Positions 1 through 10,566 of a stretch of 28,988 nt of DNA are shown piece after piece. Numbering within the stretch: the first letter of the stretch is position 1; every line of letters starts with the position of its first letter. The stretch spans positions 1 through 28,988 of the IMG/VR virus record IMGVR_UViG_3300037264_003693. The stretch is one strand, 5' to 3'. The DNA is from a virus. The notes under the pieces were generated by a model. It made no database searches. It was not told where the DNA came from and saw only the letters and a program-made list of their open reading frames with translations. The position numbers and the translations under genes were made by a program.

Positions 1-473
1 CGCTGCTTCAACTCGTCCACCGCCATCGCAGTGACACCCGGCGTCCAGACAGGATGGGTGAAATGCGCTGCATAGGCTTGCATGGCCTCATCCATCGTGG
101 AGAAGCCAAGCATCACCTTGTCCTCGTCATAAGCACCCTCCACTTCATACTCAGTGCCGAAGTAGTTGCGCTGGTGAAGGACATAGGCCATTGGCGCGGA
201 CGGATTCTCGCCGATGTACACGTCAACCGGATCCCCGTCAGATCCGCTCGTACCCGGGATCTCACCATAAAAGTTCTTCATCTTCATGCGCCATGGGCGC
301 CCATTGCTATCACGTCCCTCACGCAATGAACCCGGCACATTCTCGATGTAACAGAGGATGCCTTGGAAGTTGATGGAGCCCTGGTAAGGGTACTCTTCTC
401 GATTAGGCTTCGGAGGCGGGCCCAAAACCGCCGTTCGCTCGGTAATAGGAATGCCGATGATGATTGCCGACAC
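1..473 (-). CDS. InPase-domain (inorganic pyrophosphatase-like) phage protein, partial
   Basis: The gene runs off the left edge of the window, so only the N-terminal 157 residues are visible. It begins with GTG one base after the stop of the MuF-like gene and has a GGAGG seven bases upstream. The visible protein carries MKMKNFYGEIPGTSG, then DGDPVDVYIGE, then a YVLHQ strand and DEDKVMLGFSTMDEA. I recognise this pattern from the InPase domain described in phage and conjugative-element polyvalent proteins, where it often sits beside or within head-morphogenesis genes. The family name suggests pyrophosphate hydrolysis, but activity in the phage is not established. Placement directly after MuF fits a virion-associated or co-injected protein. 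The true C-terminus and any fused domains lie outside the window. Confidence 0.7.
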   Translation of the reverse strand, partial: MSAIIIGIPITERTAVLGPPPKPNREEYPYQGSINFQGILCYIENVPGSLREGRDSNGRPWRMKMKNFYGEIPGTSGSDGDPVDVYIGENPSAPMAYVLHQRNYFGTEYEVEGAYDEDKVMLGFSTMDEAMQAYAAHFTHPVWTPGVTAMAVDELKQ

Positions 474-1487
474 CTAACGCCCTCCCATCACAACCTGGCC
501 GCCTGGACCTATCACGCTGGGCGCCGCCTCTCCAGACCGCCAGCTCTTGGGCATGTCGAGTATAGCTGGGACACGATGCAGACTACACCCGCAAAATGGA
601 TGAGTTGGGCCTTCAATGGGCATCCACGCCGCCCGTTTCTTGCCGACATTTGTCCCATTCCCAAGCAGCTCCTTCATCTTGAAAAGACGCGGCGCACCCC
701 CATCCAAATACAGCTCGATGCAATACCTACATGCATCACCTCGAGGCAGCCGGAACACCAAGATATCCCGAGCCTGACCAGTCGCTCGGAAATGCTCGTC
801 TTCCTGTTCCTCCCAGGATTCCGTTTGTGCCGAATGAGAAGCAGCCGTCATCTCCGTCTGAACCACCCGCTCCAGGTCCCGCGACCAGTCCCCGGTGAGG
901 TGCCCAATATCGCTGACCTGCCGGTTGATGGTCGAGCGGAATGCGTTGTCGAAGTACTCGGCGCTAAAGCCCCGGCTGACACCCTCCGCCTCAATGCGGG
1001 CAGCCGCCTCATCGTCACCGAAGCGGGCAGCAGTCACATCACGGATAAGCCCCCTCAGCTTCTGATCCAATGTTCGGTCGTGCTCGATCAGCACTTGTCC
1101 GATGTCTTGGTCCACGACGTTCCCAAGCCCCACGATAGCCGCAGCCCCATGCTGCGCCGCGTGCCTCGCCGCGTGGGCCTCCACGACCGTCTGGGGGACG
1201 GGGTTGCGCCGTATCTCGTCCTGTAGCTCCTCCAGCGTGTCACCGTAACGGCTCTGCGCTGATGCCTGGTCCAGATGGGCTAGCATCGCCCCGTAGGCGT
1301 TCATGGCCTCCACGAGCACCTGCGGCGAGTCCTCATCGGGGTCGACAATACCTAGCGCGATCGCCTTGGCCCAATCCTCCTGAGACACAGCCTCTCGCCC
1401 GTAGATGGCCGCGGCCATCGCACCATGATGCTCACGAATGATTTTCGTGATGTCACGAGCCACCGTGGGTGTGATGAGTACCGACAT
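474..1487 (-). CDS. MuF / SPP1 gp7-like head morphogenesis protein
   Basis: 337 aa. Proteins of this family are minor head components bound near the portal; some are injected with the DNA. The N-terminal two thirds are helical. The C-terminal domain has the family pattern: RVVQTEMTAASHSA around residues 208-221, then CRYC (C253, C256), then THPFCGCSLHRVP (H296, C299, C301). The paired cysteines and the H-P-x-C-x-C box are the usual metal-binding-like signature of the MuF fold. The start is supported by GAGGAG six bases upstream of ATG. It lies downstream of the portal with two small genes between them, the common order portal, MuF, then protease and capsid. No toxin domain follows the MuF domain here. 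Confidence 0.85.
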   Translation of the reverse strand: MSVLITPTVARDITKIIREHHGAMAAAIYGREAVSQEDWAKAIALGIVDPDEDSPQVLVEAMNAYGAMLAHLDQASAQSRYGDTLEELQDEIRRNPVPQTVVEAHAARHAAQHGAAAIVGLGNVVDQDIGQVLIEHDRTLDQKLRGLIRDVTAARFGDDEAAARIEAEGVSRGFSAEYFDNAFRSTINRQVSDIGHLTGDWSRDLERVVQTEMTAASHSAQTESWEEQEDEHFRATGQARDILVFRLPRGDACRYCIELYLDGGAPRLFKMKELLGNGTNVGKKRAAWMPIEGPTHPFCGCSLHRVPAILDMPKSWRSGEAAPSVIGPGGQVVMGGR

Positions 1488-2459: not shown

Positions 2460-4175
2460 TCAGGGGTCTAAGTCTACCGTGTACTGAATCAGCACCCGGC
2501 TGTTTCGCTCAGACTTTATAGCCTCATCGTCCTTGATGTCAAACGGAGAAGCCCCGTCCTTGTCCGATACGGCAAAGCCTGTCTTGTCGTCATAGCCGTC
2601 CTGATCGGACGGCGCATTGGCAGATTCATCATCCTCATTCATAAACCCGCCGCCGTCATCCCCACCTCCCGCGTCCTGCTGAGCCGCAGCCTCCATGCCC
2701 TGCACGTACTGAAGCCAAGTGGGATCAAGAATAATCTCGCCCTTCTTATCTGGCAGGGGAGCCAGCTCCATCCGTTCTCGAGCCTCGTTGACGGTCAGCA
2801 CGAACTTGGTCTGCTTCATCAGCTGGTCGATCTCCCCCTCTAGTCCAGTCTCGTCCAATCCGTAGGGGTGGACCTCGAAATCAGGGTTCAAGCGCTGCAC
2901 GAAATGGGCATTGAGACACTGAAAGAACCACCGCACCAAGGGGCGCAGACCCAGATCCTTCGATGCCTTGAGCTTGTCCTCAATGGGCGCAGTACCCATG
3001 GCCTGTGACTGCCCGGTGTTCCCGTAGGAGAAGTTGACCTCCTCCGTAGCGATGTTGTACCGGGCACATACGATTTTGATCAGGAAATCCATCCACGACG
3101 AGTATTCCATGTCGCGGTTGGACATCTGCATGTTGATCCATTGCAGCTCTTCAGCGTTCGTGATGGGTGTCCGCCACGCATTCGTGACACCGCTGACCAT
3201 CGCGTACCACTGACGCCGGAACGCTTGCAGATGCTTGTCGGGGATCGCGCCCTTGAAGTTGAGAACGCCCTTCGTGGCGCTACCTTGGGAGAAGAATCTT
3301 CGATTGTAATCCATGCCCCATAGGAAGCCGGTGATCTCACGAACGAGCGTCTCGATCTCGGCTGTGCCGTAACCAAAGGAGCGAATGCCGGATCGTGGGT
3401 TCCGAATGCAAAATGCCAGCTCGGAATCGGTGAAGGACTCAGCGATGGCACCGTTGATAACCTGGACTGCAAATGGGTCTCCCTTGTCCCGCGTCCCCGG
3501 ATCAATCAGCCGGATAGTCGACGGGTCCACAATGCTGATGTAGCTAGGCTTACCGGCCCGGTTCGGAACCACCTCGAAGGTAGCTTGGTCGAAGATGAGT
3601 GAATCCGACATGAACTGATTGCAGAAGGTAAGCAGGGGAACGCTCTGATCCGGACGTTCCGGATCCCAATGCCCGGTGTGCAAGACTAGCTGCTCCAGCC
3701 GCTCAGCCTCCTTCTGCATCACCTTGGTCATCTTCTTGTTGCTGCGCCAGTCCCGGTTGCGCACACGGAACCCAGGGCTGTTCCGGTCCTCCGGCAGCTC
3801 GCAGAACATACCGACTTGCTTCACGCGGGTCTGCACCACATCAGCCACAACCGGCATCCCGCGTCCGACCATCTCCATCGCCGCAAATGTCAGGGCTGTT
3901 GGGCGCTCACGAAAGCCCATCGCCGCAACCAGATCGAAGGGGTCGAAATGGATGGCCTTGGGATCACGCGCGGGCGCCCCATCCTCGGATGGCTCGAGCG
4001 CATGGGTGCCATCCTTCCCGTTGCCCTTTGCCTTCGACGCCGCCTTGCTGATGCGGTCATCGATATCGTCCATGCGGGTCTGATTCTCTCGACCTTCAGC
4101 CCATTGATTCGCTGCCGCCAGCCCAGCTCGAGCCGCGGTGCCTGCGAAACCAAGAAGATCGTCTGCCAGTCCCAT
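2460..4175 (-). CDS. Phage portal protein
   Basis: 571 aa. The portal forms the dodecameric ring at one capsid vertex through which DNA is packaged and ejected. Supporting segments are the FDLVAAMGFRERPTAL N-terminal region, SLIFDQATFEVVPNR near residue 195, SIVDPSTIRLIDPGT, then FGYGTAEIETLVREITG followed by FLWGMDYNRRFFSQGS and KGVLNFKG, the conserved core of HK97/SPP1-type portals. SYGNTGQSQAMG and a long helix leading to LTVNEARERMELAPL complete the pattern. The C-terminal 80 residues are acidic and Gly-rich low complexity. It overlaps tightly with the upstream tag-bearing gene, with AAAGGG as ribosome binding site across the upstream stop. Confidence 0.9.
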   Translation of the reverse strand: MGLADDLLGFAGTAARAGLAAANQWAEGRENQTRMDDIDDRISKAASKAKGNGKDGTHALEPSEDGAPARDPKAIHFDPFDLVAAMGFRERPTALTFAAMEMVGRGMPVVADVVQTRVKQVGMFCELPEDRNSPGFRVRNRDWRSNKKMTKVMQKEAERLEQLVLHTGHWDPERPDQSVPLLTFCNQFMSDSLIFDQATFEVVPNRAGKPSYISIVDPSTIRLIDPGTRDKGDPFAVQVINGAIAESFTDSELAFCIRNPRSGIRSFGYGTAEIETLVREITGFLWGMDYNRRFFSQGSATKGVLNFKGAIPDKHLQAFRRQWYAMVSGVTNAWRTPITNAEELQWINMQMSNRDMEYSSWMDFLIKIVCARYNIATEEVNFSYGNTGQSQAMGTAPIEDKLKASKDLGLRPLVRWFFQCLNAHFVQRLNPDFEVHPYGLDETGLEGEIDQLMKQTKFVLTVNEARERMELAPLPDKKGEIILDPTWLQYVQGMEAAAQQDAGGGDDGGGFMNEDDESANAPSDQDGYDDKTGFAVSDKDGASPFDIKDDEAIKSERNSRVLIQYTVDLDP

Positions 4176-4177
4176 GG

Positions 4178-4504
4178 CTACCCTTTCTCAACTGGAAACA
4201 ACCCGCCCTGGTAGCCGGGAGCCAATGCACCTGGCTCGGAGAAGCGTATTGCACCCACCTGATGCGGAAACTCGGCAATCATCGTGTCAGCAGATCTGCC
4301 CTTAACGAGATCAAGGGGATTCTTGCTCAGACTTTTATCGACATCCGCATCCTTGGCGATCTTGCCCTGCCGCTCCATTGACAACGCAGCAGCCACCGCC
4401 CGGTCCTGCGGGTACCCCTTGTCTCGGACGAGATGACTGATTTCCTTGGAAACGGTCATGCCCTTACCCTTAACCAGATCAAGAGGATTCTTAGACATCG
4501 TCAT
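4178..4504 (-). CDS. Small protein with two NPLDLVKG tags
   Basis: 108 aa from ATG at 4504 (GGAGG four bases upstream); an ATG at 4498 would give MSKNPLDLVKG and cannot be excluded. Two copies of SKNPLDLVKG occur, one at the extreme N-terminus and one near the middle, separated by a helical segment with SHLVRDKGYPQDRAVAAALSM. That segment resembles short phage helices with a GYPxxQAxAiA-type pattern. The C-terminus is short and ends three residues before the portal gene. The tag recurs in the gene just upstream. I do not know a family for it. Position beside the portal suggests an internal or head-assembly protein. Confidence 0.6.
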   Translation of the reverse strand: MTMSKNPLDLVKGKGMTVSKEISHLVRDKGYPQDRAVAAALSMERQGKIAKDADVDKSLSKNPLDLVKGRSADTMIAEFPHQVGAIRFSEPGALAPGYQGGLFPVEKG

Positions 4505-5342
4505 CACGCCTCCGTACCCCTGTCGGGTGGGTCAGGGTGCCATTCCCATAGCGCACAAGGTCCATGGCACTGGTAGTGTCTCGCTCGGCCACCTCATACT
4601 CAGGGGCACTCGGGCGCCCCAAATCCGGGCGCGAGCCCATCGGCCCATCATTGTACGCGGGCGAGTTGGCATAGGTCACAGCACCCTGACGGAAAACTGG
4701 AGGCTCGGGGGCGGTAGCTTTGACCAAATCGAGAGGATTTGTAGATTGGCTCTTGCTCGTAGATCCCTTATGCACTTTCCACTCCTTGTCAGCAAATAGG
4801 ACTCCGCGCCCTAGTATATTCTCGTCAACACCACGCTGATTCAGGTGCTGAATCGCGTGTAAGTCAGATGCCTTCTTCGGGTAGTGCAGATCCCAATTAC
4901 CATTACTCCGCTTACGGGCTGCGATAGGTTTGCCCCGGTTACGCCCCTTCTTAGGCTTTGAGACCAACACAGTCCCCGCCGGATACGCATCCATGTCCGC
5001 TTCAGTGTGGACCTGATGCTCACTCGGGGGCTCTGCCTCTTTCGAGATAGCCGTGTAAACATAGGTATAGCCCCCGCCCGGCGCAGGCTTACGCGAGATG
5101 TACTTATGGCTCTGAGCCTTCTCAAGTACCTCGTCAGCCTTACTCAGCCCAGGCAGCTCGGACGGATGAATGTTTCCATTAATCAGATCAAGGGGGTTGA
5201 CGTTGCTCATGGACTTCCTCGTAGTAGCTGCATGTTTCGCGGCAGAAGCCATAGCTTCCTCCCTCGTGCCAATCGCTGTCAGCGCTCCCTTCAGCGGCCC
5301 ATGCTTCTTGCGATCATGATCAAGCGGATTGAAATCAGACAT
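4491..5342 (-). CDS. Hypothetical head-region protein with repeated NPLDL tags
   Basis: 283 aa. The start at 5342 is chosen over a longer reading from 5408 because GGAG lies six bases upstream and the N-terminus then reads MSDFNPLDHDRKKHG. Tag-like motifs occur four times: DFNPLDHDR at the N-terminus, NVNPLDLING, STNPLDLVKA and a degenerate TSAMDLVRYG near the C-terminus. Between the second and third lies HKYISRKPAPGGGYTYVYTAI, a motif I associate with phage virion or polyvalent proteins, and a basic segment KPKKGRNRGKPIAARKR. The gene starts inside the last codons of the 1068-aa gene and overlaps the next gene by 14 bases. Function unknown; a capsid-internal protein is a reasonable guess. 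Confidence 0.65.
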   Translation of the reverse strand: MSDFNPLDHDRKKHGPLKGALTAIGTREEAMASAAKHAATTRKSMSNVNPLDLINGNIHPSELPGLSKADEVLEKAQSHKYISRKPAPGGGYTYVYTAISKEAEPPSEHQVHTEADMDAYPAGTVLVSKPKKGRNRGKPIAARKRSNGNWDLHYPKKASDLHAIQHLNQRGVDENILGRGVLFADKEWKVHKGSTSKSQSTNPLDLVKATAPEPPVFRQGAVTYANSPAYNDGPMGSRPDLGRPSAPEYEVAERDTTSAMDLVRYGNGTLTHPTGVRRRDDDV

Positions 5343-8300
5343 CTCTGGCTCCAAGCAGACGGCACAGGTCGAAAGCCGCCTCACGATTGATGGTAGTAGA
5401 CAGCTCACCCGTCACCATCAAGTAATTCGGAATCCCTGCCTTTCGCAGGTCCCCAGTGAGATGGTACTCGTCCCCGGTCCGCTGGACAAGGATGCCATCA
5501 GCCTTGAGAAGCGTCCGTAGCTGCTCAGTTACATCAGCGCGCGCAATGGCTTGACGCTCGCCCCCCAGATTGAAGTACCGCCGCACGGTCATCCGATGGT
5601 TGGAAGTACCATACAATGATGTGAGCAGCGCATGCCCACCCTTCACAATGTCCGCGCCCACCTTGAACCGCCCGTCTGCCAACACCTCAATGGCTCCAGC
5701 ATCCTCGTGCCGATCCCGCGGGTGCAACAGCATCCCCGGCTCCAGGTCGTCACGGTGCCCATGCACATTAACAGAATGGGGCGCACGGGCCTTCCGAAGC
5801 CCGAAACGTAGCGGTGGGGAGGGTGGCACCTTGCGCGCCTTCGTCAGGCCCCCAGACGAGATAGCGCTAGGAGCAGGTACGCTTGGACTATTTAGATTTC
5901 CGAAGATGACAAAACCACGCATCTCGAGATCATCCTCTTCGGTGTCTTCCTCATCGTCAACAGACGTATCGATTACCGAACCTACAGCATCGGTAGCATC
6001 CCCGGCCTTATCAATGCCCCTGGTACCGCCCGCTGCTAGCGGCGAGGCTTGCAACATAGACTTCCTGTGGCTCACGGGCTCAGGCACATTGGGCCCAAAC
6101 CCCATGCGCACCCACTTTTCGTGACCTGTCATGTGATGCAGATGCTGACCAGCAACCGCACCGCCCTGGGCTCTCAGCTCTGGATCGCTGCTGGTGTGCA
6201 TGTCCTCAGCCGCATCCAACGCCCGTCGATGAGCATCCGCCGCATCCTGATGGTCTTGCCGCGTGAAGCCCCGGTAATCCTGTGGCTTCTTGCTCGCATA
6301 GATGGCCTTACCGCTAGCAGTGCGCCCTATGACATGACCACCACGACTCCCCGCACCACCAGCCTTCAGCAGCAAGCGCCCTGAACGCGGATCCATGAAG
6401 AGAGCCTTCTTCACCGGCTCAGGCTGGATGTCCTCCCCATTGTCATCAGTCCCACTGATGCCAGTCACGAGATGCGCAAAGGATTTGATCCGCTTCCCCA
6501 GCCATTCGATGGCTTGAGGTGATGGGTCTTTCACCACGGTCTTCGCTTGCTTCTTCAGCTCCTTGAACATCCCCTTCTGATGGGCACTGTCCAAGCGAGA
6601 CTCAATGGCATCGAGCGTAGAGATCAGGTCGTGAACCTCCTGCGTCTGTCGGTGCTGCTCGTGAGGTTGCTCGGGGCTGTCATGCCCCTTGGGGCGCGGG
6701 GGCTCCGCATCGTCATCCCCCGCGCCCTCCTGGTCGCCGTTCCCGTTGGGGCCCTTCTCACCATTGCCTTGTCCGTTCTTTACGCCCGGTCCCAAGGCAT
6801 ACGAATCATCGTCATTTCCGGGTGAGTCGTCGCCCTCTCCTCCCTCCGCAGCTTCGATTTCGTCAGGGGTCCACTCATGTCGCAGGATCTCCTGCATCTG
6901 CTTGATCATACCCTTGACCAGTTTCTTCAGCTCAGTCTCATTGGCGGGGTCAACTTTGGAGGCACCGTCAGGGGTGCCATCGTCCGTAAGCCACCCGGTA
7001 AAGTGCTCGTCAGCCTTGCCATCCTTGGCCTTAGCCTTAGGACCATCCTGCCGCTCATCCTTCCCAGACGAGACACTACCTTCAGACGCCTTTGAACTCT
7101 TCTCCTTTGCCTGGAATGGCGGCTTGCCTGCTGCCTTGTGCACAGCAGAATCAGCAGCATGATAAGCGTCACCTGCCACACCGCCATGCTTGTACCCCTC
7201 GGCAACATCAGCCATCTTGTGCACGAAGCCCAGCCCAGCGTAGGCGGTATAGGCGTTGTTGAGATGTGCATGCAACGCTGCCAACGCCACATGCGTCAGC
7301 AACTTGTTGCTTAGCGTAGCCTTCCCCGCCATCGCACCGTGCCCGCTGGCAACGACTGCAGTCGTACCTACCATCGCCCCGATCGCTACGATGGACTCCA
7401 TGTCGTGCTTGTCGAGAGGCTCCCCCTTCTTCAACTTACCGATGGCATCGGCAGCATCAGGGAATTCCTTGGCGTTGTTCTTCAACCCGTGCCACACCCG
7501 ATTTACGACAGGGGCGCCAGCCAGCTTCTTGTCCAGCTCCCGCATGGCCTCCTGGACCTTGGCATGACGATCTGCTGCCTCACGCATCCCACTGAAGGGG
7601 GGTCCGTTAAGTGCACCTTCTTGACCGGGAACCGGAGGCTGGGCCCCGGGCAGCTGGGCACCGAAGGGCGGCTTACCCCCAGGCTGCTCACCTTCAGGCG
7701 GTGCATCGGGCGTGGCCGATTGTGACAACCCGTTGGCGATGTGCTCCTTTAGCTGATTCTCCAAATGATCCATGTGGAGATGGCTGTGCTTCTCATCATC
7801 GAAATCGCCGTGAATACGCTTACCGGCAGCCTTCGCATTGTTGGTGATGTCTTTGAAGCGATCCTTTGCAGTCTTACCCCCACGCAACGTAGCCAGATCC
7901 GGCTTGCCTCCGTTCTTCGGTGGCGCGCCAGGCTTCTCGCCCGGCTTCCCGTTGGGGCCTTTCACGGGCTCCCACTTGCCATCAGCGACCTTGCGGTGGT
8001 CGAGCCCGCTCTCCCGGTGACGCTTGACGGTCCCAATAGGGGAGCCCTGTCCCACAGGCTCCGGCTTCCCCTTGGCCTTTCCCTTCTTGGGAGGAGGTGG
8101 CACTGGCGCCGCCTTTGCCAGGTAGCCCGCATCAATGTCGAGGCGCTCGCGCAGATCCATCCCGCGGCGGATCAGCTCAATGATCGCGGGCTTAGGGATA
8201 CCAGCCTCCCTTGCCGATTTCGACACTGACAGCAGATCACGCGCATCTTCAGCCACCTCACGGATGAGCTTTCCGGCGATGCGCCCTTTCTCAGCGGTCA

Positions 8301-8541
8301 GGCCGAGCGTGTTCGCCGCATCATCAATCGTCGCGAAGTTGTGTCGCCCCACCCCATTCTCCGGTCTGCCAACTCGCATTATCTCACCCAAATCCTTAGC
8401 TGGCTTCTGGTCGCGAGCGACCTTCTCTCGTGCCCATGTCAGGGTGATCTCGGGGTGTCTGCCTGTTTGCCGAATGCGGCTGTCTGGGTTGGGCATGCGA
8501 AGGGGAAACCTCGTCTCAACAGAGAGTAGCTGCGCGACCAT
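5335..8541 (-). CDS. Large multi-segment phage protein, 1068 aa
   Basis: It starts 13 bases after the large terminase, with only a weak GACGGG upstream. No single family covers it. Visible segments in order: a helical region at 60-130; VPPPPKKGKAKGK at 147-158 and a long Pro/Gly/Lys linker to about 320; a hydrophobic helical patch at 385-440 (GAMVGTTAVVASGHGAMAG, then ALHAHLNNAYTAYAGLGF); an acidic Gly/Asn-rich linker at 560-635; GGHVIGRTASGKAIYAS with DYRGFTRQDHQDAADAHRR at 734-772, a motif I know from phage head-region proteins; an acidic run at 860-873; RKVPPSPP at 903-910; and a compact mixed C-terminal domain. The architecture resembles phage polyvalent proteins whose domains are delivered with DNA. 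Function of the parts is unknown. Confidence 0.7.
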   Translation of the reverse strand: MVAQLLSVETRFPLRMPNPDSRIRQTGRHPEITLTWAREKVARDQKPAKDLGEIMRVGRPENGVGRHNFATIDDAANTLGLTAEKGRIAGKLIREVAEDARDLLSVSKSAREAGIPKPAIIELIRRGMDLRERLDIDAGYLAKAAPVPPPPKKGKAKGKPEPVGQGSPIGTVKRHRESGLDHRKVADGKWEPVKGPNGKPGEKPGAPPKNGGKPDLATLRGGKTAKDRFKDITNNAKAAGKRIHGDFDDEKHSHLHMDHLENQLKEHIANGLSQSATPDAPPEGEQPGGKPPFGAQLPGAQPPVPGQEGALNGPPFSGMREAADRHAKVQEAMRELDKKLAGAPVVNRVWHGLKNNAKEFPDAADAIGKLKKGEPLDKHDMESIVAIGAMVGTTAVVASGHGAMAGKATLSNKLLTHVALAALHAHLNNAYTAYAGLGFVHKMADVAEGYKHGGVAGDAYHAADSAVHKAAGKPPFQAKEKSSKASEGSVSSGKDERQDGPKAKAKDGKADEHFTGWLTDDGTPDGASKVDPANETELKKLVKGMIKQMQEILRHEWTPDEIEAAEGGEGDDSPGNDDDSYALGPGVKNGQGNGEKGPNGNGDQEGAGDDDAEPPRPKGHDSPEQPHEQHRQTQEVHDLISTLDAIESRLDSAHQKGMFKELKKQAKTVVKDPSPQAIEWLGKRIKSFAHLVTGISGTDDNGEDIQPEPVKKALFMDPRSGRLLLKAGGAGSRGGHVIGRTASGKAIYASKKPQDYRGFTRQDHQDAADAHRRALDAAEDMHTSSDPELRAQGGAVAGQHLHHMTGHEKWVRMGFGPNVPEPVSHRKSMLQASPLAAGGTRGIDKAGDATDAVGSVIDTSVDDEEDTEEDDLEMRGFVIFGNLNSPSVPAPSAISSGGLTKARKVPPSPPLRFGLRKARAPHSVNVHGHRDDLEPGMLLHPRDRHEDAGAIEVLADGRFKVGADIVKGGHALLTSLYGTSNHRMTVRRYFNLGGERQAIARADVTEQLRTLLKADGILVQRTGDEYHLTGDLRKAGIPNYLMVTGELSTTINREAAFDLCRLLGARDV

Positions 8542-8554
8542 TAACCCGTCAAGG

Positions 8555-10282
8555 TCACCACGTCGGACCAGTGATACCTACCCCCTCGCGGGGGCGCCAG
8601 TCATCATCCTCTCCGAAAAAGTTGGGCGCACCATCATCTCCCACATCGCTGAAGTAGTCAGCTGTATCAATCTCATCCTCCGCAGAAACGGACTCGCTGC
8701 GACTGAAATCAAATGATGCCCCTCCAACCGTCGCTGCCCTATCAGCGATCCAGAGGGCCATTACACAGTCATCGTGTGCTCCGACACCCTGCATCCGACC
8801 CTCAGCCCAGCCAAATGACTGCATCTCACCAATGAGCACTTTGATTTGTTCACGCGACTCTATTGCCCATGGCAGCTTCAGCTTGGCATTCTCCAGCAAC
8901 ATCCGAAGGGTAGGAATGCCCTGGTCGAGAGCATTCTTATTGGCGGTGTAGGTCTGGTTCATTCCCCGCCGCTGAGACGTGACCTGCCTATGTCCGCCTC
9001 TGCCAGTCGTGTAGAATGCTTTGATCGGCACGTCGCTGGTGCGCACCACCATGTCGGTCACGACCCGTTGGAATTGATTGGCTTCCACGAAGACCATGCC
9101 GGCGTCGTAGCGCTTGGCAGTGTCCACCACCAAATCAACCTGGTCCTGGTACCCCAGCCCCTTCTTACGTATAAGGTCGGCCAAGTATCGGTCCCCGTTG
9201 CGATCCAGCGCCAATACGACGAGCACAAAGTAGTCGCCCTTGGCAGTGGCAGACAAAGCCAGGTCGACGCCTATGTAGCACTCAAAGCCCCGCTCCTTCC
9301 AAAACCGCGGCTGCCCCATGGTGAATGGCTGCTTGATCCCAGGCTGCTCAAATAGGCTGCCAGGGAACAGCGAGGCATCGTCGCTAATGGGTCGGCACAG
9401 GTACTCACGCGACCATCGCAAGCTGCTGTTGAGTGTCTTCTTCTTGCGATCCAGCGCCTCCATGTTGTACCGCGCTGGCCACAAGGGCTTACCCACCTCA
9501 TCCCCGTCCACGTTGATAGCTGGATGCTTGGTCGTCTTGAAGACCCCGCCATCCTCCAGATGGTTGTACAAATCCAGAGCATGGAACGGTGTACTCACAA
9601 CGATCAGCTGCCCGCCAGGAACCACCATCGGCTCAATGGCTGACAGGAAGTAATCGATAGCCTTGGTGCGGACAGTCTCTGACCAGATCCAGTCGTCATT
9701 GCCTACGTCATCACAAATGATCCAGAACGGATGGCCTCCGCGTACCCGCGTTCCAAAGCCTCGAGCACGAATCTCAGAGCCATTAGCGAATCGCAACCGC
9801 TTAGCGCTGGCCTTAACCGGTAAGAGATGCTTCAGCTTAGGGTTACCATCGGAGCCGTACTCACCTCCACCCTCCACCTCATCACGGATCTTCTGGAGAT
9901 GCTCAATAGCCTGCTGCTCGGTCGCGGAGAAGATGTAGCCAACCTTACCGGGTGCCCTGCGATCCGCCATCCAGAGCGGATACGCAAAGCAAAAGAAGTG
10001 GCTTTTTCCGTGATCACGGGCCGCCAGGGCTAGGATACGATTCTCTAAGTTACAGACCTTGCCCCATTCAATGTGATGAGGCCCCAACAGAAAGCCACCA
10101 CCATACTCCTCGGGGCCTCGAAGAATCTCACTGGCGTATGTGGGCAAGAACGCCCTGAGCATTCGTGCATGGGTAGCCCTGAACACAGGATCCCGCGCCC
10201 GGTCTAACCGGCTCATGGGAATGCTGGCCTCAGGCGTAGGAGGTAAACGCCGCGGAGGCGGAGGCGGGACCTTCCGGAGCAC
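8555..10282 (-). CDS. terL: Terminase large subunit (DNA-packaging ATPase/nuclease)
   Basis: 575 aa. It drives ATP-dependent DNA translocation into the prohead and cuts the concatemer. ATPase motifs: Walker A-like AARDHGKS at 87-94 (Arg-Asp-His before GKS is a common terminase variant), Walker B IICDD at 188-192, and coupling motif VVSTP at 228-232. The RNase H-fold nuclease has YIGVDLA (D340), VFVEAN (E400) and GAHDDCVMAL (D504/D505). The start is GTG sharing one base with the upstream TAG. It gives an unusual MLRKVPPPPPRRLPPTP tail; an alternative ATG at 10216 would remove it, but neither start has a strong ribosome binding site. The C-terminus is acidic. The small subunit is not identified with certainty. 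Confidence 0.93.
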   Translation of the reverse strand: MLRKVPPPPPRRLPPTPEASIPMSRLDRARDPVFRATHARMLRAFLPTYASEILRGPEEYGGGFLLGPHHIEWGKVCNLENRILALAARDHGKSHFFCFAYPLWMADRRAPGKVGYIFSATEQQAIEHLQKIRDEVEGGGEYGSDGNPKLKHLLPVKASAKRLRFANGSEIRARGFGTRVRGGHPFWIICDDVGNDDWIWSETVRTKAIDYFLSAIEPMVVPGGQLIVVSTPFHALDLYNHLEDGGVFKTTKHPAINVDGDEVGKPLWPARYNMEALDRKKKTLNSSLRWSREYLCRPISDDASLFPGSLFEQPGIKQPFTMGQPRFWKERGFECYIGVDLALSATAKGDYFVLVVLALDRNGDRYLADLIRKKGLGYQDQVDLVVDTAKRYDAGMVFVEANQFQRVVTDMVVRTSDVPIKAFYTTGRGGHRQVTSQRRGMNQTYTANKNALDQGIPTLRMLLENAKLKLPWAIESREQIKVLIGEMQSFGWAEGRMQGVGAHDDCVMALWIADRAATVGGASFDFSRSESVSAEDEIDTADYFSDVGDDGAPNFFGEDDDWRPREGVGITGPTW

Positions 10283-10566
10283 TATTCGCCATCCACCGGA
10301 GCCGCCGGGGTCTCCTTCCCGCTACCGACAGTAACACCGTCCTTCGTAATCGAAAGATAGCGCCCCAAGACCATCGCGGTAAGTGCGGCGTTCGCAGCCA
10401 TCGACAAGGCAAGCAGGACATACAACATTCGCGTAGAGCTTTTGGCCGCGTCCACCGCAGCCTGCCACGCAGTATCAGTGCGCGCGTCCTGCCGTTCGTC
10501 CCGTTTCTCGAGGCGCTCGAATACTGCAGTACCAGGCCCCTTCACGCGCTGCTCTTCTTCGCTCAT
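10282..10566 (-). CDS. Small single-pass membrane protein
   Basis: 94 aa from ATG at 10566, which has GGAG six bases upstream; a GTG at 10593 has no usable site. The first 45 residues are charged (FERLEKRDERQDARTD) and probably helical or coiled. One clear membrane segment follows, MLYVLLALSMAANAALTAMVLG, then a short polar tail. It sits immediately before terL and overlaps its start by one base. Such proteins next to terminase can be holins or membrane anchors, but there is no motif to decide. A holin is possible; the lysis cassette at 16.5-18 kb has another candidate. Confidence 0.6.
   Translation of the reverse strand: MSEEEQRVKGPGTAVFERLEKRDERQDARTDTAWQAAVDAAKSSTRMLYVLLALSMAANAALTAMVLGRYLSITKDGVTVGSGKETPAAPVDGE

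Follow-up and report, generated by a model that had tools for sequence, protein, structure and literature searches.

In bacteriophage T4, gp21 processes the scaffold and the internal proteins at [L/I]-x-E. The sites described here resemble those of T4 in their order of a hydrophobic residue, any residue and a charged residue with a small residue next, in the short N-terminal propeptide and in the many scaffold sites, but differ in carrying Lys where T4 has Glu; by analogy, they may be lysine counterparts of the [L/I]-x-E sites. In SPN3US and phiKZ, many head proteins are trimmed at x-x-E, and the gp245 protease also trims away its C-terminal propeptide (PMC10052503). The processing of many head proteins and the protease's C-terminal propeptide are again likenesses, whereas Glu at P1 and a placement mostly at N-terminal propeptides, not at module junctions, are differences. 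The HK97 capsid is cut between K103 and S104, that is, Lys then Ser (PMC10275583), and the likeness to this S78-type maturation lies in Lys then Ser at the capsid cut and in the S78 Pfam family found for the SPO1 and G001 proteases. In contrast to HK97, the sites of the SPO1 group are also repeated in separate scaffold, portal and multi-module internal proteins. P1 Dar and the 'polyvalent proteins' offer a further parallel in their modular proteins, InPase domain and head gene cluster; the excerpts of that account that we draw on report no repeated short cut site at module junctions (PMC5512222).

The window, the whole stretch of 28,988 bases that was analysed, is a complete virus record and itself a genome fragment. 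Its minus strand carries, in order, the terminase, a 1068-aa protein, a 283-aa ORF, a small ORF of 106 aa (from the ATG at 4498) or 108 aa (from the ATG at 4504), the portal, and then other head genes and an InPase domain (Table 1); the protease, scaffold and major capsid protein (MCP) genes fall outside the fragment. The portal is about 37% identical to gp3.1 of Bacillus phage SPO1 and 54-62% identical to the portals of three environmental contigs. The small, 283-aa and 1068-aa ORFs contain no Pfam domain, and Pfam and PHROG scans placed the 283-aa and 1068-aa proteins in no family; the YPQ module of the small ORF gave a weak match to phrog_2423 in the PHROG scan. Close relatives of the small and 283-aa ORFs were not found in the viral_contigs search, nor did tblastn against cultured phages return a match for the 1068-aa and 283-aa proteins. 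The InPase domain (PF18823) lies in an ORF at 3-473 (-) that is cut by the window end, and was also found in the related locus L001. It is preceded by an ORF at 474-1487 (-), termed MuF-like for its position and without a family match. Related contigs run on past the InPase region into ORFs of more than 2,500 aa; by eye, one of these has a stretch that resembles a helicase.

Table 1. Features of the window and putative protease-site peptides (a slash marks a putative cut).
Feature	Coordinates	Strand	Remarks
Terminase	8555-10282	-	holds no site of the broad class
1068-aa modular protein	5335..8541	-	13 [LIVMF]xK[AGS] matches vs 4.9 expected
283-aa ORF	4491..5342	-	contains HKYISRKPAPGGGYTYVY module
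Tag copy E, NPLDHDR	5310..5330	-	283-aa ORF N-terminus; degenerate, without Lys site
Tag copy D, NPLDLING	5175..5198	-	283-aa ORF; Asn where Lys expected
Lys75, VLEK/AQS-HKYISRK	5118..5120	-	283-aa ORF; directly ahead of HKY module
Lys192, KVHK/GS	4767..4769	-	283-aa ORF; possible site behind HKY module
Tag copy C, NPLDLVK/A	4716..4739	-	283-aa ORF; Lys208
AMDLVRYG, doubtful copy	4545..4568	-	283-aa ORF; compared by eye with L001, L003
106/108-aa ORF	4178..4504	-	N-terminal NPLDLVK/G, helical 'YPQ' module, second NPLDLVK/G, C-terminal tail
Tag copy A, NPLDLVK/G	4466..4489	-	small-ORF N-terminus
Tag copy B, NPLDLVK/G	4298..4321	-	behind YPQ module of small ORF
SPO1-like portal protein	2460..4175	-	putative N-terminal site DDRISK44/AAS, codon 4044-4046
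Putative S78-protease site peptides of the virus group			MSKNPLDLVKGKG; SFMKSFLTG; EDVVKSFQT

An earlier note on this DNA had described a short tag repeated upstream of the portal, and this description holds: the small ORF contains NPLDLVKG twice, and the 283-aa ORF contains NPLDLVKA, NPLDLING and NPLDHDR once each. Its further proposal of AMDLVRYG as a degenerate copy is doubtful; this stretch is probably no copy, because its surroundings, compared by eye, resemble a different element, the C-terminal tail of the portal-adjacent small protein in loci L001 and L003. The DNA of copies A and B is identical at 24 of 27 nucleotides, and the three codons that differ are all synonymous. Thus, the near-identity from which recent copying had been deduced is confirmed, but recency is not its sole reading, since exclusively synonymous differences are compatible both with recent duplication and with selection acting on the peptide.

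The tag extends well beyond the window. A profile scan identified 80 related loci, and the motif, whose absence from homologous phages had been named as the outcome that would count against it, is widespread at equivalent positions among them. Portal-side proteins of the relatives begin with MSNELLDLVKG, MTTPLLDLIKG, MSSLLDLVKG or MKGTLLDLIKG, in the same place as copy A, and tags also stand ahead of modules, as in SVDDTPDLVKG-GKEGSRGG, DTPDLVKG-GGPYIGKRGG and SDLIKA-AQHKYIKR. The window and the related loci together yield 1,050 distinct ORF products, in which D[LIM][VIL]K[AGS] has 75 matches where shuffling predicts 7.9, about 9.5-fold (shuffle maximum 14 in 60); with E, R, Q, N or D at the Lys position of this narrow pattern, the counts are near chance (6-10 observed, 4-9 expected). 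Among 66 distinct tag contexts, 16 are no more than 25 aa from the start of an ORF, where 4.3 are expected, and most of the 66 are internal or N-terminal; with only 5 of the 66 at C-termini, an encapsulin-type cargo peptide, a single C-terminal tag, was rejected. As judged from sequence statistics, the tag is real and beyond chance. It could in principle be functionless, the product of recent neutral duplication, as the near-identical pair of copies might suggest, or of generic linker composition, the linkers being rich in K, A and G. We consider this very improbable: copies A and B differ only at synonymous codons, the motif is kept in relatives whose portals are 54-62% identical, and the excess is Lys-specific and exceeds composition-preserving shuffles.

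In this virus group the broader site class consists of [L/I/V/M]-x-K with A, G or S as the next residue; D-L-[V/I]-K-[A/G] is a common form. The modular proteins and portal of the window together hold 22 such sites against 8.3 expected, an excess confined to Lys, and the terminase holds none. Total broad-motif counts in the modular proteins of loci L058 and L015 were not significant. In the 1068-aa protein, K108 and K967 are pattern matches inside conserved regions where the relatives lack the motif, so some matches are not true sites.

We propose that the Lys-bearing tags are cleavage sites of the phage's S78-type prohead protease, of the form [L/I/V/M]-x-K/[A/G/S] and frequently D-L-[V/I]-K/[G/A], and assign this reading a probability of roughly 0.78, because the Lys-type site recurs at termini, modules, portals and scaffolds and at the end of the MCP propeptide. 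Protease cleavage was one of the functions that the earlier note had entertained, next to capsid targeting and scaffold binding and with reference to T4 internal proteins, and the comparative evidence from MCP, protease, scaffold, portal, module boundaries and Lys specificity supports it well. The proposal that this is an undescribed packaging-tag system with no named family was too strong, because the core of the tag is a prohead-protease-type site that matches the form of HK97 K103/S104 and of the phage 812 capsid site. Most probably, the tags put a known kind of site to a new, polyprotein-like use, and an unknown tag system is the less likely account.

In PDB entries 9ROW, 9ROX and 9ROZ, the MCP of Staphylococcus phage 812 comprises residues 25-463 and starts right after EDVVK24/SFQTGYG, whereas entry 5LII gives the full 463 aa; residue 25 is probably the mature N-terminus, the chain start being the depositors' choice of sequence. 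The P4-P1 residues of this site, DVVK, are close to the DLVK of the tag. Aligned MCPs have a common N-terminal segment with Leu two residues ahead of the cut position, which reads LNK/AL in SPO1 and most metagenomic relatives and LRK, LSK or LNE in the others. A copy of this MCP segment lies in the C-terminal region of the protease (LDKSLEAGYEV...RKESLD in SPO1; SFMKSFLTGHGTSPDTQVDAGALRKE in 812), and phmmer and PHROG profiles give protease/MCP cross-matches at the common segment. The segment, K[AS]xxxGxxxxP...ALRxESL, is the one common to protease and MCP in L089 at 7526-8296 and 9060-10466 (SPO1 gp3.2 and gp6.1), and also in L008, L006 and L091. Protease, scaffold and MCP are encoded in the downstream contig stretches of two relatives. 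The protease is Peptidase_S78 (PF04586) in SPO1 and G001, and the L029 protease has no Pfam hit; 15 of 15 conserve a His-containing motif, GxxNx[DNE]H, together with a Ser-containing one, G[FY]S[VI]EG. The relatives were also checked for a Peptidase_S78_2 (XkdF) protease, and none was found.

Scaffolds carry the site in numbers: 11-14 against 1.1-1.5 expected in SPO1, EalM-132 and the metagenomic relatives G001 and G003, and 6-8 against 1.0-1.4 in 812, BSTP3, Sw5 and Yen8, with other P1 residues near chance. Two of the ten scaffolds, those of LP064 and Lb338, show no enrichment. When every Lys of eight scaffolds was considered independently of the motif, I, M, L or V was enriched at -2 (1.7- to 2.5-fold) and S at +1 (3.4-fold), and controls lacked both. 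In 51 of 57 distinct portals, the window's included, a site falls within the N-terminal 75 aa, compared with 24% of shuffled segments and 7.6% of other portal windows. In the BSTP3 record (L095, MW354667.1; 1884-5776) the product names seem to be one gene off: a portal-length CDS bears the name capsid maturation protease, and major capsid protein is the name given to the scaffold.

Not every copy fits a simple cut site. Copy D is probably not cut, and the copies NPLDHDR and NPLDLING, together with the doubtful AMDLVRYG, lack the Lys, and the NPLD part may thus serve some other purpose. In loci L004 and L058, the sites in SDIVKAFKP-stop and LTDLVKSFKR-stop lie 3-5 residues from the C-terminus; a cut there would remove almost nothing, which fits a terminal tag better. 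Within the L004 cluster, the ORFs ending at 2360, 3020 and 11853 stop 3-5 residues past a DIVKA, DLVKA or DLVKS tag. Given the Lys-less copies and the extreme C-terminal tags, the NPLD/DLV part could have docking as a second function, and a separate capsid-targeting role for NPLD is possible.

Taken further, these features could indicate a capsid-targeting or scaffold-binding tag that is never cut, one per module, docking each cargo module to scaffold, portal or capsid and being retained. Its presence at N-termini and some C-termini, a hydrophobic-Asp-hydrophobic core (D-L-[V/I]) that exceeds a minimal cut site, the persistence of Lys-less copies in the window, and the N-terminal signal that P1 DarB needs for packaging, according to the excerpted report (PMC9024508), are in keeping with such a tag. 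We nevertheless regard it as unlikely, given that Lys and the small residue are strict, that E, R, Q, N and D versions are near chance, and that the MCP, the protease, the portal and the majority of scaffolds carry the same site at positions where cuts are expected. A refinement of the protease-site reading, to which we give not quite even odds, combines both functions in one element in the style of T4 internal proteins: NPLDL[V/I] would dock and K/G would be cut later. The roughly 10-aa length of the N-terminal copies agrees with this, and T4 and SPN3US provide precedents of cleaved propeptides with targeting roles (PMC10052503). The N-terminal placement of the tags would, by the same analogy, also fit a T4-like targeting propeptide.

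With the tags read as prohead-protease sites, their positions suggest how the modular proteins might be handled. Sites stand within 22 residues upstream of SRGG, GPFIG and HKY modules in 36 of 40 cases against about 8 expected from random windows of the same proteins (17-25%), a test that accepted Lys or Arg and used modules that were chosen by eye after the sequences had been read and that, being paralogous in part, are not independent. The HKY module of the 283-aa protein is flanked by VLEK75/AQS ahead and KVHK192/GS behind, followed by NPLDLVK208/A; in the 1068-aa protein LLLK726/AGGAGSRGGHVIG stands ahead of an SRGG module. The GPFIG module as a tblastn query on its own gave no match. For the two tagged proteins, AlphaFold models built from single sequences have low confidence (mean pLDDT 55 and 46); in the small ORF, pLDDT is about 70-76 at residues 21-40 and about 50-55 at the tags, a faint hint that the tags may lie outside the helical module.

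In the mechanism that we suggest, the N-terminal copy would end a short propeptide of about 10 residues, which would probably help import into the prohead, like that of T4 internal proteins, before the prohead protease trims it. The internal copies lie at module junctions, so the protease would separate fused modules, splitting internal head proteins inside the prohead, and the same enzyme would also trim capsid protein, portal and scaffold. We infer that the window proteins are packaged and cut and that the N-terminal peptide targets them. The sequences themselves establish that the motif is the same, that its enrichment is specific to Lys, that sites stand at termini and at the boundaries of modules, and that protease and capsid have a segment in common; structure records of phage 812 add a capsid chain that starts behind VVK24. 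More tentatively, and with the balance slightly against it, the arrangement may be a cassette-like polyprotein, in which interchangeable internal-head modules, each with a Lys site ahead of it, are fused, co-packaged and cut apart in the prohead by the capsid's protease, with the NPLD-type N-terminal peptide as the entry signal.

If this is correct, the proteins that enter the head of SPO1-related phages, and the points at which they are cut, can be predicted from a single short motif, and unannotated modular portal-side proteins become testable internal or injected proteins. It would also supply a cleavage consensus for proteases of the SPO1/Herelleviridae type, scaffold and portal sites included, and possibly a handle for loading foreign proteins into SPO1-type heads.

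The portal itself contains a tag-like stretch, DPFDLVAAMG (residues ~78-88), which was rejected as a copy in that it lacks the Lys and belongs to conserved portal sequence. In the form DPFDLVxxMG, this feature is kept in the four closest portals.
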